Shown piece after piece: positions 176 to 36,297 of a stretch of DNA of 36,304 nucleotides. Both the position numbers and the translations under genes were made by a program. The stretch lies in the IMG/VR virus record IMGVR_UViG_3300046009_000538, positions 1 to 36,304 of that record, one strand, 5' to 3'. A model generated the notes under the pieces. That model saw only the letters and a program-made list of their open reading frames with translations. It ran no database searches and was not told the DNA's origin. Position 1 is the first letter of the stretch, and each line of letters starts with the position of its first letter. Origin of the DNA: a virus.

Positions 176-541
176 ATGGAAACGTTAAAAAGAGGCCGTG
201 GTAGACCTAAGGGGTCTGTGAAGATGACCATACAGAGGTTTGCTGATAACCCTCCTATGGTATTGCCTAAGACTGACCATCAGAGGCTCAAGGAGCTTAA
301 AGAACTGATGATTAGGTCTGGAGGTAAGGATGTTGCTCAGAAGGTGATAGAGATAGCTTTAAATGACGAGCATCCGCATCAACTAGTGGCTTTAAAGATG
401 TGTTTGGATAGGACTCTACCTGTGAGTATGTTTGAGAAGGATAAGAGTCAGAGGAGTGCTGTGACCATCAATATCACTGGTTTGGGTGAAGAGCCGACCA
501 TAATTGAACAACCAGAAGATGTAGAGGCAAAGTATGGCTGA
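176..541 (+). CDS. Putative terminase small subunit
   Basis: This 121-residue protein immediately precedes and overlaps (by 8 bases) the large terminase gene, the usual place for the small subunit that recognises phage DNA for packaging. The N-terminus is basic and AT-hook-like (RGRGRPKGS, residues 6-14). The middle segment (GGKDVAQKVIEIALND, about 49-64) resembles the DUF5681-type domain often found in phage small terminases. The start is supported by AGAAAGGA a few bases upstream. The role rests mostly on position and this weak resemblance. A DNA-binding accessory protein is the alternative. Confidence 0.65.
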   Translation: METLKRGRGRPKGSVKMTIQRFADNPPMVLPKTDHQRLKELKELMIRSGGKDVAQKVIEIALNDEHPHQLVALKMCLDRTLPVSMFEKDKSQRSAVTINITGLGEEPTIIEQPEDVEAKYG

Positions 542-25867: not shown

Positions 25868-26043
25868 CTCACCCTCCTTAGAGGAACTTCTTTCTTTTCT
25901 GGAGGAGGTGGTGTCATGTGTTCTGAAGGTGGAGTCCATCCATGTTTTCTCCATAGTGCTTGGACATCAGACCCTGATTCCCACTTGAAATCCTTGGTTG
26001 GAACAGAGGGATAACTGATCTTTGAATGTGGAGGAAGAGTCAT
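25864..26043 (-). CDS. Small hypothetical protein
   Basis: This 59-residue ORF is joined to both neighbours by 4-base ATGA overlaps. It is Pro- and Trp-rich: YPSVPTKDFKWESGSDVQAL, then WRKHGWTPPSE and a basic tail (EKKEVPLRRVR). The SGSDVQALWRKHGWTPP phrase appears in small phage proteins I associate with Burkholderiales phages. No function is known. Confidence 0.65.
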   Translation of the reverse strand: MTLPPHSKISYPSVPTKDFKWESGSDVQALWRKHGWTPPSEHMTPPPPEKKEVPLRRVR

Positions 26044-26372
26044 TTTGTCACCTTCATAATTCTTTGTTTTCTACCTGAACGACCATTGCGTGTACCAATA
26101 ATCTCAATAAATCCCTTGTCTAACAAAGCACGATAACGAGCTGTTATGGAGGAATATGGGTATTGGGGATACATCTCTAGCACCTGATCTGAAATACACC
26201 CCTCTGGGAAGCTCTTAATGGCCTCATAGACGAGTTGTTCTATCTTGGTGGTGTCAATGGCTTGGGATGCCTCATGGCTCGTTACAGGGTCTTCTTTGCG
26301 TACCAACTTAAATGCTGGTGTACCAAAGAATCTGTCCATTGACTGCTTCATGTTGTTAAAAATATCATTCAT
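26040..26372 (-). CDS. Winged-helix DNA-binding protein
   Basis: This protein has about 110 residues; a second start three bases upstream (26375) is possible, but 26372 fits the AGGAG spacing better. The segment DPVTSHEASQAI is typical of phage regulators, followed by a winged-helix pattern: CISDQVLEMYPQYPYSSITA (helix-turn-helix) and RYRALLDKGFIEIIGTRNGR (wing). It could regulate the leftward recombination operon or help replication. Domain class is likely; target unknown. Confidence 0.75.
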   Translation of the reverse strand: MNDIFNNMKQSMDRFFGTPAFKLVRKEDPVTSHEASQAIDTTKIEQLVYEAIKSFPEGCISDQVLEMYPQYPYSSITARYRALLDKGFIEIIGTRNGRSGRKQRIMKVTK

Positions 26373-26476
26373 CATTGACTCCTATTAGGTGAGGCTACTC
26401 GCTGCGTCTGTGCGTAATCAGAGGCTTTTGATCGCAACTGGCACAGCATCCGCTTTCGCCTCGTAAACTTACTCAA
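26372..26476 (-). CDS. Possible basic peptide, TTG start
   Basis: This 34-residue ORF fills the gap between the DUF736-like gene and the winged-helix gene. Its TTG overlaps the upstream stop (TTGA) and its TGA overlaps the downstream ATG (ATGA). An internal ATG lies at 26449. It is strongly basic (FTRRKRMLCQLRSKASDYAQ). The paired overlaps argue for translation; the rare start and small size argue against it. Confidence 0.4.
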   Translation of the reverse strand: MSKFTRRKRMLCQLRSKASDYAQTQRVASPNRSQ

Positions 26477-27205: not shown

Positions 27206-27814
27206 TTATAACTCCTTAGCCTTTTTCAAAGCGGAACGCACTTTACTGGGAAGGAGTGTCCACAGGGCAATCTTTTGTTGATCGTCTAGGTTCTCTCCCT
27301 CTAACTTAACCCAAGCTGCCTTGGGATCACCTTGCTCACAAGTGGCAATCAGATCGACTGCCATTTCTTGTAAGTACTGTAATTCCTCTGGAGGAATATT
27401 GTCTTGTGCACCCTGAGTAGGTGTGATAACCACTGATTTACCCTCTTCAGGTAGGTCTTCACCAGCATAAATATACAGTCCCAAGCCATGCAGACTCAGA
27501 GCCTTGGTCATACAGCGCATGATGGCTGTGTTCACTGCAAAAGCATCAGGATTAGGAATGGCTTTGTTGCGGTAGTCCATCACAGGAAGCTGACAGGTCA
27601 TTGGTTTACCAAACATGGTGGCAGTAACAAACACCATTGCCGTACCATTGATATCCATGAAACACTTGTCTCCAAACATCTCTACCTTGTAGGAAGCAGT
27701 AGGATCGGCTTTGAGAGCCTCTGCCCATGCCCAAGCCCATGATAGGTAAGTCAGGTTGTTTTTCTTCTCTGTATGAGAATTAACATCTTTTTTAAGTAAC
27801 GCTTCTATTGACAT
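27206..27814 (-). CDS. Single-strand annealing protein (DUF1071/Sak-type)
   Basis: This 202-residue protein starts with KDVNSHTEKKNNLTYLSWAW (9-28), the hallmark of DUF1071. These proteins are counted among phage single-strand annealing recombinases of the Sak group. A mid-segment VNTAIMRCMTKALSLHGLGL (94-113) matches the conserved helix before LYIYAGEDLP. The C-terminus is helical and acidic-basic. It would promote annealing of phage DNA ends with the SSB-like protein, RusA and Ref-like nucleases. AAAGGAG precedes the start. Confidence 0.8.
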   Translation of the reverse strand: MSIEALLKKDVNSHTEKKNNLTYLSWAWAWAEALKADPTASYKVEMFGDKCFMDINGTAMVFVTATMFGKPMTCQLPVMDYRNKAIPNPDAFAVNTAIMRCMTKALSLHGLGLYIYAGEDLPEEGKSVVITPTQGAQDNIPPEELQYLQEMAVDLIATCEQGDPKAAWVKLEGENLDDQQKIALWTLLPSKVRSALKKAKEL

Positions 27815-28219: not shown

Positions 28220-28389
28220 ATTCACTCCTATTTGTTTATCAAAAATGTCCGTTTTTGCAATTCGTCCCTGCATGATCTCCCGTGGATCTAGTTGGTCACA
28301 AGTTTCGATGGCATTGCAACTTTTTTACACGATGGACTTCGCATGAACACTGACCAACACCTTTAATGTGCCACAGGTTTTACAACTAT

Positions 28390-28417
28390 TTAATAGGGGT
28401 TTTCCCTAGTTACGCAA
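28390..28417 (-). promoter_or_regulatory. Predicted leftward promoter
   Basis: On the minus strand TTGCGT (28417-28412) and TATTAA (28395-28390) stand 16 bases apart. Both are weak matches to sigma-70 consensus. The palindrome at 28394-28408 lies across the spacer and -10 element, where a bound protein would block transcription. It would drive the genes from 28219 leftwards. Confidence 0.35.
28394..28408. promoter_or_regulatory. Operator-like palindrome TAGGG-N5-CCCTA
   Basis: Perfect 5-base arms flank GTTTT. The same arms and spacing occur at 34885-34899 (spacer ACAAA), and related AGGGT-N2-ACCCT sites lie at 31-42 and 35784-35795. All are in non-coding DNA. A phage regulator, perhaps one of the winged-helix proteins, may bind them. 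Confidence 0.45.
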
Positions 28418-28489: not shown

Positions 28490-28669
28490 ATGCACGTTGA
28501 AATACTTGAACAAAGATGCGCTGAAGCCTTGCTTGGGTACTCTCAAACAATGGCAGATGCTTACACAACCGAACCAGAGGACTTAGATGCTTCTATGACC
28601 GCCTTGCTTGCTAGAACGCTAGAACTCCATCTAAACCGCAAAATCAATTTGGAGAACCTTTTCAAATGA
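28490..28669 (+). CDS. Small hypothetical protein, first of rightward operon
   Basis: This 59-residue ORF ends with a 4-base overlap with the winged-helix gene, which supports it. It is acidic and helical (EILEQRCAEALLGYSQTMAD; EPEDLDASMTALLARTLELH). No clear ribosome site precedes the ATG at 28490, so a leaderless or later start (ATG at 28550) is possible. The family is not recognised. Confidence 0.55.
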   Translation: MHVEILEQRCAEALLGYSQTMADAYTTEPEDLDASMTALLARTLELHLNRKINLENLFK

Positions 28670-29031
28670 CTCAAGCCATGATCATTAAAGCTCTGCAAAA
28701 TGGGCCACTTACTTCACAAGAGGTCTGTGATTTAACAGGAATGCCTAAATCATCTGTATTGTCAACAGCTAAGAAGTTGAGATACAAAGGTGAGCTAACG
28801 ACAGAAGAGGTTAAGGTTGGTCGCTATAGAGTTGCCAGGTACACCCTTGCTGACCACTTGATTGAGAGCAAGCCAAAAGATGAAGCCCGCTGCTTGCTAA
28901 ATCCTTTTGACATCAGAAATGCCAAAGGTATCTTTAGTAAATCAGAATATGCGGTTATGAATGCACAAGCTAAACGATTGCTTGGTAGACCAAAACCTGC
29001 GAAAGAAATCACAAATAATCAATTTATTTGA
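28666..29031 (+). CDS. Winged-helix transcription regulator
   Basis: This 121-residue protein has an N-terminal winged helix: MIIKALQNGPLTSQEVCDLT, then GMPKSSVLSTAKKLRYKGEL as recognition helix, then VKVGRYRVARYTL as wing. The C-terminus is a charged linker with SKSEYAVMNAQAKRL. It sits at the head of the early operon, next to a divergent control region, and is the natural candidate to act on the shared palindromes. Target inferred. Confidence 0.72.
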   Translation: MTQAMIIKALQNGPLTSQEVCDLTGMPKSSVLSTAKKLRYKGELTTEEVKVGRYRVARYTLADHLIESKPKDEARCLLNPFDIRNAKGIFSKSEYAVMNAQAKRLLGRPKPAKEITNNQFI

Positions 29032-31373: not shown

Positions 31374-31798
31374 GCTTTATGGTCACTTTTAAAGTTGACG
31401 CTGACCCTGTTGGCAAACAAAGAGCAAGGTATGCCAAACGTGGAAATCACGTTATGGCTTACACCCCTGACAAAACAAGAAACTATGAGTCTTTAATAAA
31501 AGAAGCCGCAATAGAAGCAATGGGAAGTAGCGAACCCTTGGAAACCCCTGTAACGCTGTATTTGTACATCAGAGCGCCAATCCCTAAGTCTTTGCCTAAA
31601 AAGCGGATAGAAGCCTGTTTAAACGGCTTAGAAAAGCCAATTAAGAAGCCAGATGCATCCAATGTGCTTAAAAGTGTAGAAGACGCTATGAATGGAGTTG
31701 TTTACAAGGATGATTCGCAGATCGTGAATATCCATGTTTCCAAGGTTTATTCAAGTGTTTCAGGAGTAGATGTTTGCATAAAAGAATGCTTGGATTAG
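31370..31798 (+). CDS. rusA: RusA-type Holliday junction resolvase
   Basis: This 142-residue enzyme cuts four-way DNA junctions. The RusA fold is clear: KQRARYAKRG near the N-terminus, then KPDASNVLKSVEDAMNG (93-109) and KDDSQIVNIH (113-122), with the catalytic Asp residues at 95, 105 and 114/115. Along with annealing and Ref-like proteins it makes up the phage recombination set, here used to clear branched DNA before packaging. An alternative ATG lies 9 bases downstream of the chosen start. Confidence 0.92.
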   Translation: MSFMVTFKVDADPVGKQRARYAKRGNHVMAYTPDKTRNYESLIKEAAIEAMGSSEPLETPVTLYLYIRAPIPKSLPKKRIEACLNGLEKPIKKPDASNVLKSVEDAMNGVVYKDDSQIVNIHVSKVYSSVSGVDVCIKECLD

Positions 31799-31811
31799 GG
31801 TAAGTCCTAAT
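31794..31811. promoter_or_regulatory. Inverted repeat behind resolvase gene
   Basis: ATTAGG and CCTAAT are 6-base arms around GTAAGT, spanning the RusA stop. The core TAGGG-N4-TCCTA differs by one base from the AGGG/CCCT palindromes in the divergent regions. It could be a weak operator for the following genes. No T-run follows. Confidence 0.35.
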
Positions 31812-34859: not shown

Positions 34860-34880
34860 CTAGGGGAATGAAACCCCTAG
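34860..34880. repeat. Inverted repeat CTAGGGG / CCCCTAG
   Basis: Perfect 7-base arms flank AATGAAA, between two small leftward genes. On the minus strand AATCTAATTTTT follows, so a weak terminator is possible. The arms share the AGGG/CCCT core of the operator-like palindromes and the next one begins 5 bases away. Confidence 0.5.
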
Positions 34881-34884
34881 GCAA

Positions 34885-34899
34885 TAGGGACAAACCCTA
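34885..34899. promoter_or_regulatory. Operator-like palindrome TAGGG-N5-CCCTA
   Basis: The arms and spacing equal those at 28394-28408; the spacer here is ACAAA. It lies in the leader of the 34829 gene. Together with the repeat at 34860 it makes a pair of adjacent sites, which would suit cooperative binding. Confidence 0.45.
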
Positions 34900-35783: not shown

Positions 35784-35795
35784 AGGGTTTACCCT
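35784..35795. promoter_or_regulatory. Operator-like palindrome AGGGTTTACCCT
   Basis: This is the exact reverse complement of 31-42. It covers the -35 element TTTACC of the rightward promoter. A protein bound here would block that promoter. Confidence 0.5.
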
Positions 35796-35819
35796 TGGAA
35801 CTATTGTGTGCAATAATTA
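35788..35819 (+). promoter_or_regulatory. Rightward promoter, extended -10
   Basis: TTTACC and AATAAT are 18 bases apart, with TGC just before the -10 element (extended -10 form). It lies upstream of the ATG at 35844. The operator-like palindrome covers its -35. Confidence 0.45.
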
Positions 35820-35843: not shown

Positions 35844-36107
35844 ATGGGAAGACCCTCAAACCCTCAAACCCGATACTTCCAAAGAACATTGTCAGACCCT
35901 CAGAGAATGATCTTGTTGGCTGCTGGCAAGGGGAATTTGTGTCGGGGTTTTGAGAACGTCTTAGACCTATACAGTGAGGCTCACAATCAGGGATATCGAC
36001 CAGGCATGGAATTGAGTATTTTAAATATTAGGTCGGGAACAACTAACAGCCCCAACTTAGATGAATCACTAGTGGATAAGGTAAGGGAAGATAGAGGGAA
36101 CATATAA
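35844..36107 (+). CDS. Small hypothetical, possibly DNA-binding
   Basis: This 87-residue protein begins MGRPSNPQTRYFQRTLSDPQ, an AT-hook-like start, followed by a likely helical part (ILLAAGKGNLCRGFENVLDL; YSEAHNQGYRPGM). It has its own promoter with an overlying palindrome, so it could be autoregulated. Its position before the terminal repeat and small terminase gene would suit a packaging or early regulatory protein. Family not recognised. Confidence 0.65.
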   Translation: MGRPSNPQTRYFQRTLSDPQRMILLAAGKGNLCRGFENVLDLYSEAHNQGYRPGMELSILNIRSGTTNSPNLDESLVDKVREDRGNI

Positions 36108-36172: not shown

Positions 36173-36297
36173 TTATGCAAAAAACGCATAACCTTTGCAC
36201 TAAGGGTAAACCCTGAGCTGTATGGATAGACAGTAGTAGAAACCCTAGTGTGATGTATGGGGGGGAGGGGTAGAGTGGTGTGTGTAGATATTGGTGT
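36173..36297. repeat. Terminal direct repeat, right copy
   Basis: Identical to 1-125. The region from 36108 to the repeat has no gene I can support. After the repeat come 7 bases (CCCTCTT) that differ from the continuation of the left copy (AGCCCCC), so either the contig end carries an error or the repeat ends here. Confidence 0.85.

Follow-up and report, generated by a model that had tools for sequence, protein, structure and literature searches.

Putative TAGGG-(A/T)4-5-CCCTA operators in a family of freshwater phages and in Burkholderiales promoters

The window analyzed here is the whole of record IMGVR_UViG_3300046009_000538, 36,304 bases from an uncultured virus, and all coordinates refer to it. 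It contains palindromes that we regard as putative operators of the form TAGGG-(A/T)4-5-CCCTA. We consider it moderately probable that these operators belong to a regulator encoded by the Burkholderiales host and that several unrelated freshwater phages have adopted them. The same N4/N5 code occupies the same promoter position in Burkholderiales chromosomes, which makes a host regulator the better candidate and suggests, at the level of sequence comparison, that the phages borrowed a bacterial control switch. We infer that one protein reads all of the sites, that it is host-encoded and that it represses.

Palindromic sites in the window and in related phages

Counting TAGGG-N5-CCCTA and AGGGT-N2-ACCCT together, with the overlap of the contig ends counted once, the window holds four strict sites (28394, 34885, 35784 and 36203), all in non-coding stretches. 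Across 300 dinucleotide shuffles of the whole genome the mean was 0.03 strict sites and the maximum 1; for the non-coding stretches the mean was 0.01. Finding four distinct sites where 0.03 are expected shows that the palindromes are real and did not arise by chance. A preliminary description of this DNA had placed the N5 form at 28394 and 34885 and the N2 form at 31, 35784 and 36203, in non-coding DNA or at gene ends. All of these sequences are present, with one correction to their number. Positions 1-125 of the window recur exactly at 36173-36297, followed by 7 divergent bases, and because the contig ends overlap by these 125 bases the sites at 31 and 36203 are a single site. The genome is probably circular or permuted, its assembly seam lying in non-coding DNA before the terminase genes. 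Two relaxed forms had also been proposed: that given as 31794 is a degenerate site at 31796, and that at 34860 is a different inverted repeat with longer arms, which we keep apart. The latter is likewise conserved in relatives, and its TAGAAT box belongs to a leftward small gene. The sites, to which no strand is assigned, are as follows.

31-42: duplicate of the 36203 site through the terminal overlap
28394-28408: operator TAGGGGTTTTCCCTA, in the gap that separates the leftward recombination operon from the rightward early genes; same place in relatives
31796-31809: degenerate operator TAGGGTAAGTCCTA, overlapping the RusA-like gene's stop codon; gene 31860 begins 50 nt downstream
34860-34880: separate element, inverted repeat CTAGGGG-N7-CCCCTAG with a 7-nt spacer, directly before TAGAAT on the minus strand
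34885-34899: operator TAGGGACAAACCCTA, preceding the island of small leftward genes; TATTGC follows the leftward CCC
35784-35795: operator AGGGTTTACCCT, ahead of gene 35844-36107, whose start codon follows at about 45-55 nt in relatives
36203-36214: operator AGGGTAAACCCT, in the interval that leads from gene 35844 to the terminase genes

The leftward block of the genome combines a Sak annealing protein with SSB and a phrog_1123 winged-helix protein. The rightward block opens with the small protein at 28490, the winged-helix protein at 28666 and a DUF1376/primosomal protein, and runs on to a RusA-like resolvase and small genes. A small minus-strand gene island, including one ArdC-like fragment, is followed by gene 35844 and the terminase block. 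The genes that matter for the argument are listed below.

176-541, plus strand: gene that opens the terminase block, on the downstream side of the 36203 operator
26040-26375, minus strand: winged-helix protein, phrog_1123, an unconfirmed candidate regulator
27206-27814, minus strand: Sak-type single-strand annealing protein (PF06378) of the leftward operon
28490-28669, plus strand: conserved small protein whose gene comes first on the right-hand side of the 28394 operator
28666-29031, plus strand: winged-helix protein, a disfavored candidate regulator
35844-36107, plus strand: small basic protein, predicted strand-helix-helix, with operators on both sides; the remaining phage-encoded candidate

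Neither half of the window gave a megablast match to cultured phages, and tblastn with the 35844 and 176 proteins against cultured phages gave none. The only match from the cultured-phage searches was a distant 33-kb record, MW202710, which has the 28490 gene in common; it carries at most a half-degenerate site beside that gene and zero strict sites in the 29 kb examined.

Relatives were taken from two IMG/VR scans, which yielded 160 related loci (1.8 Mb). AGGG-Nx-CCCT occurs in them 156 times at x=4 and 159 times at x=5, and 0-19 times at other spacings except for 65 occurrences at x=9. The A/T fraction of the spacer is 0.94, 0.88 and 0.60 for x=4, 5 and 9, respectively. The x=9 sequences were set aside, since they are a mixture of unrelated sequences with less A/T-rich spacers. 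The consensus in relatives is TAGGG(a)TAAACCCTA. Only 15 of the approximately 315 N4/N5 sites lie inside a recognized homologous gene, all within the 35844 homologue, so that coding sequence is avoided, and the same intergenic positions recur across the loci. The interval between 35844 and the terminase block holds 106 N4 sites, the divergent 28019/28490 gap 48, and the interval between the RusA gene and 31860 45; further recurrent positions lie after 33109 (26 sites) and before 35844. In the 28019/28490 gap, 43 of 78 distinct intergenic sequences have a strict site and most of the others a degenerate version. The position of the degenerate 31796 site is taken by a strict N5 site in 42 distinct relatives. 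The earlier proposal of a single operator family over several promoters agrees with the comparison: the family is kept in related phages and avoids coding DNA.

Relatives without a strict site retain TAGG-N6..8-CCTA, for example TAGGATAAACCCTA, TAGGTGTTTACACCTA and TAGGGTAAATACCTA. The TTTA and TAAA cores are interchangeable, with both orientations found before the same gene. These half-site variants, the tolerance of spacing and the unoriented cores fit a protein dimer on double-stranded DNA and not to a hairpin.

Three further observations were made in these loci. A sequence beside the 28394 operator, TAATGTGCCACA at 28366-28378, is strictly conserved in relatives and lies in the presumed 5' leader of the leftward operon. 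Several loci (L009, L015, L075 and others) contain a dense array of CCCTTA/CCCTA half-sites plus a G run before gene 176; this stretch may serve in packaging or regulation. Two loci (L102 and L114) come from IMGVR_UViG_3300043446_000617, a contig of 68 kb in which two copies of the terminase are separated by 34 kb; it may be a head-to-tail dimer assembly.

Promoter geometry in the phages and in Burkholderiales chromosomes

Two of the sites had been described as sitting exactly on predicted promoter elements. For 28390-28417 this is well supported by comparison, and for 35788-35819 it is plausible only. The element at the former place is:

28390-28417, minus strand: predicted leftward promoter, -35 TTGCGT (28412-28417), operator in the spacer, -10 TATTAA (28390-28395)

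The 28394 operator occupies the spacer of this promoter, directly upstream of the -10, and the -35 of a predicted rightward promoter adjoins its right-hand side. In many relatives the same gap holds a leftward TTGTCT-N17-TATAAA, again with the spacer filled by the operator. This predicted layout is naturally read as occlusion of the leftward promoter, and operators of the 28394 type probably act as repressor sites for the predicted promoters. The rule that CCC stands directly upstream of the -10 holds at 28390-28417 and, in relatives, at the 31796 place. At 36203 and 35784 in the window, no good -10 follows the site in this register. Relatives have TACAAT or TAGAAT about 7 bases past the operator at the 35784 place and no clear -35, so that the operator may activate there.

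The same arrangement was sought in 300 Burkholderiales genomes, sampled with MAG G018 as the center of its order, with the reversed pattern as control. Tandem AGGGWWWWCCCT was found 8 times against 0 for the control (estimated chance about 0.03), and AGGGWWWWCCCTATAAT 9 times against 0. When the spacing of TAGGG-Nx-CCCTATAAT was varied from 3 to 7, the same genomes gave 7 matches at N4, 4 at N5, 1 at N7 and none at N3 or N6. Plain TAGGGTWWACCCTA occurred 15 times and its control 10 times; the sites emerged with the paired and -10-anchored patterns. The strict patterns matched in only about 9-10 of the 300 genomes. A class-wide control of 369 genomes, searched with free spacing, gave 10 matches, fewer than its control, with unrelated, chance-like spacers except in one genome (G112) that also sits in the Burkholderiales sample.

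The host sites precede a family of RLTDxLER small proteins (L383, L386, L388, L390 and L403) and DUF3563 genes (L400 and L402), and lie beside phasin genes (PF09361; L404 and L405), although the L404 promoter is directed away from the phasin gene. Three of the RLTDxLER proteins end in SGSQW, and the members of this family that were scanned have no Pfam or NCBIfam match. Most host promoters consist of TTGC in the -35 region, the operator, and CCC followed directly by TATAAT, and the leftward promoter of the window has the same layout of TTGC, operator, CCC and -10. Half-sites, N4/N5 spacing, A/T core and the place of the operator between a TTGC-type -35 and the -10 are thus shared by the phage sites and the Burkholderiales AGGGWWWWCCCT promoters. 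The arrangement is not identical: host sites come in pairs mostly 24-25 bp apart before a consensus TATAAT, whereas phage sites are single or paired, mostly 50-51 bp apart, with a weaker -10 and more N5 spacers. A literature search for a AGGGWWWWCCCT-type operator in a regulatory context and for DUF3563 promoters in Burkholderia, which left most subscription journals outside its reach, returned nothing relevant; the operator and its Burkholderiales regulon therefore appear undescribed.

We tentatively infer that the host of the phage is a Burkholderiales bacterium. A terminase relative of 83% identity lies in the betaproteobacterial MAG G018, where a phage contig can be contamination, and a more distant one (37%) on a Janthinobacterium contig. 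G018 itself has three tandem AGGGWWWWCCCT sites before an RLTDxLER small-protein gene (L390). The phage fragment in G018 (L359) is without AGGG operators and has TGTGGGCAATGTGGGTCA repeats before its 35844 homologue.

Candidate regulators and alternative readings

The operator scan also recovered unrelated freshwater phages with 5-11 sites each. Eleven sites lie in the 31 kb of G001, where the reversed pattern occurs once, and five in G002, where it does not occur; the corresponding counts for the records of L333 and L279 are 11 (in 31 kb) and 5. All-against-all comparison with the window family found a Gp88-like gene, a cytosine methylase and small accessory genes in common, and no shared regulator. 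In particular, these phages have no detectable homologues of 35844 or 28666 and no detectable phrog_1123 member. This bears on the three proteins that the preliminary description had named as possible regulators, at 26040, 28666 and 35844.

Of the phage-encoded proteins, 35844 remains the best rival. A phage autoregulator, most plausibly this protein with TAGGGTTTACCCTA as its operator sequence, could read all sites and set when early, recombination and packaging genes are expressed; the resemblance of the sites to Burkholderiales promoters would then be due to convergence or to capture in the opposite direction. The gene has operators on both sides and is present in 95 relative loci. Its product has confidently predicted helices (pLDDT) at 18-27 and 32-48 after an extended stretch, an outline compatible with a ribbon-helix-helix monomer, and proteins with a similar signature occur in L264, L293 and L295. 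Distant phages carry their own repeats directly upstream of the 35844 homologue (TGTGGGCAATGTGGGTCA in L359, TGTGGTCCATGTGGACCA in L157 and TTTGGTCATGG in L161), as expected of an autoregulator. However, Pfam, PHROG, PDB-sequence and fold searches returned no family and no structural match. The putative DNA-reading strand, TVQFRRKL, is identical in phages with TAGGG sites and in phages with TGTGGTCC repeats, and three strand types coexist with one operator; strand and operator do not change together among the homologues. Nor does an autoregulator explain the chromosomal promoters or the multi-site phages that lack 35844. We regard it as unlikely, if still deserving of attention.

The original proposal of a winged-helix regulator at 28666 or 26040 is improbable. 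Gene 28666, two genes down from the 28394 operator, encodes a product with weak MarR-like similarity, but relatives that share the operator differ strongly in the predicted recognition helix of this protein. Moreover, L293 retains the site at the 28019/28490 junction beside a 28490 homologue of 44% identity, with an unrelated 65-residue protein in place of 28666. The predicted recognition helix of 26040 is conserved, but phrog_1123 is absent from the unrelated multi-site phages searched.

RNA hairpins or terminators are very improbable: loops of 4-5 nt would suit them and several sites follow gene ends, but there is no T-run after 28394, 34885, 35784 or 36203 as in an intrinsic terminator, the sites lie within promoter spacers upstream of the transcript, the fifth pair is mismatched in TAGGGGTTTTCACCTA and TAGGGTAAATACCTA and compensated only in TAGGTGTTTACACCTA while TAGG/CCTA is retained, and the loop is unoriented relative to the gene. 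A DNA operator is the better fit to the TAGG-N6..8-CCTA half-sites.

A probable host regulon taken up by phages

Under the host-regulator reading, the palindromes would be double-stranded DNA operators set into phage promoters, belonging to the regulon of a Burkholderiales transcription regulator and taken up by several unrelated freshwater phages. On the 28394 site, a dimer would lie over the leftward (Sak/SSB) promoter, covering its spacer and the upstream end of its -10, and just upstream of the -35 that serves the rightward early promoter; leftward transcription would thereby be blocked and rightward transcription possibly modulated. Through related sites, the same host signal would also reach gene 31860, the small-gene island, gene 35844 and the terminase block. 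The preliminary description had supposed one regulator for the recombination operon, the island and the last rightward gene.

Phage promoters under host regulators are known, as in LexA-controlled phage genes and in phage promoters with Fur or CRP boxes. As there, a host operator over early promoters would couple phage transcription to the state of the host; the difference is that here several unrelated phages have one operator in common and the regulator is putative. The switch regions of the early promoters of phage lambda, OR and OL, offer another parallel, with operators over divergent early promoters that are repeated elsewhere in the genome. In the present phages sites also precede terminase and accessory genes, and a phage repressor is only a candidate.

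More tentatively, and with somewhat less confidence than in the host-regulator reading itself, we propose a novel Burkholderiales global regulator of phasin, DUF3563 and small-protein genes acting via AGGGWWWWCCCT. Unrelated freshwater phage lineages would have recruited its operator independently, placing it over early, recombination, accessory and packaging promoters and gating infection by host physiology.

These phages are common in freshwater metagenomes, and our searches found no close cultured relative. A shared host-like operator offers a handle on their regulation, as it predicts which promoters answer one signal and points to Burkholderiales hosts. It also exposes a Burkholderiales regulon for which we found no publication in the literature searched. 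If a host regulator does control several unrelated phages, host physiology would set the timing of infection community-wide.
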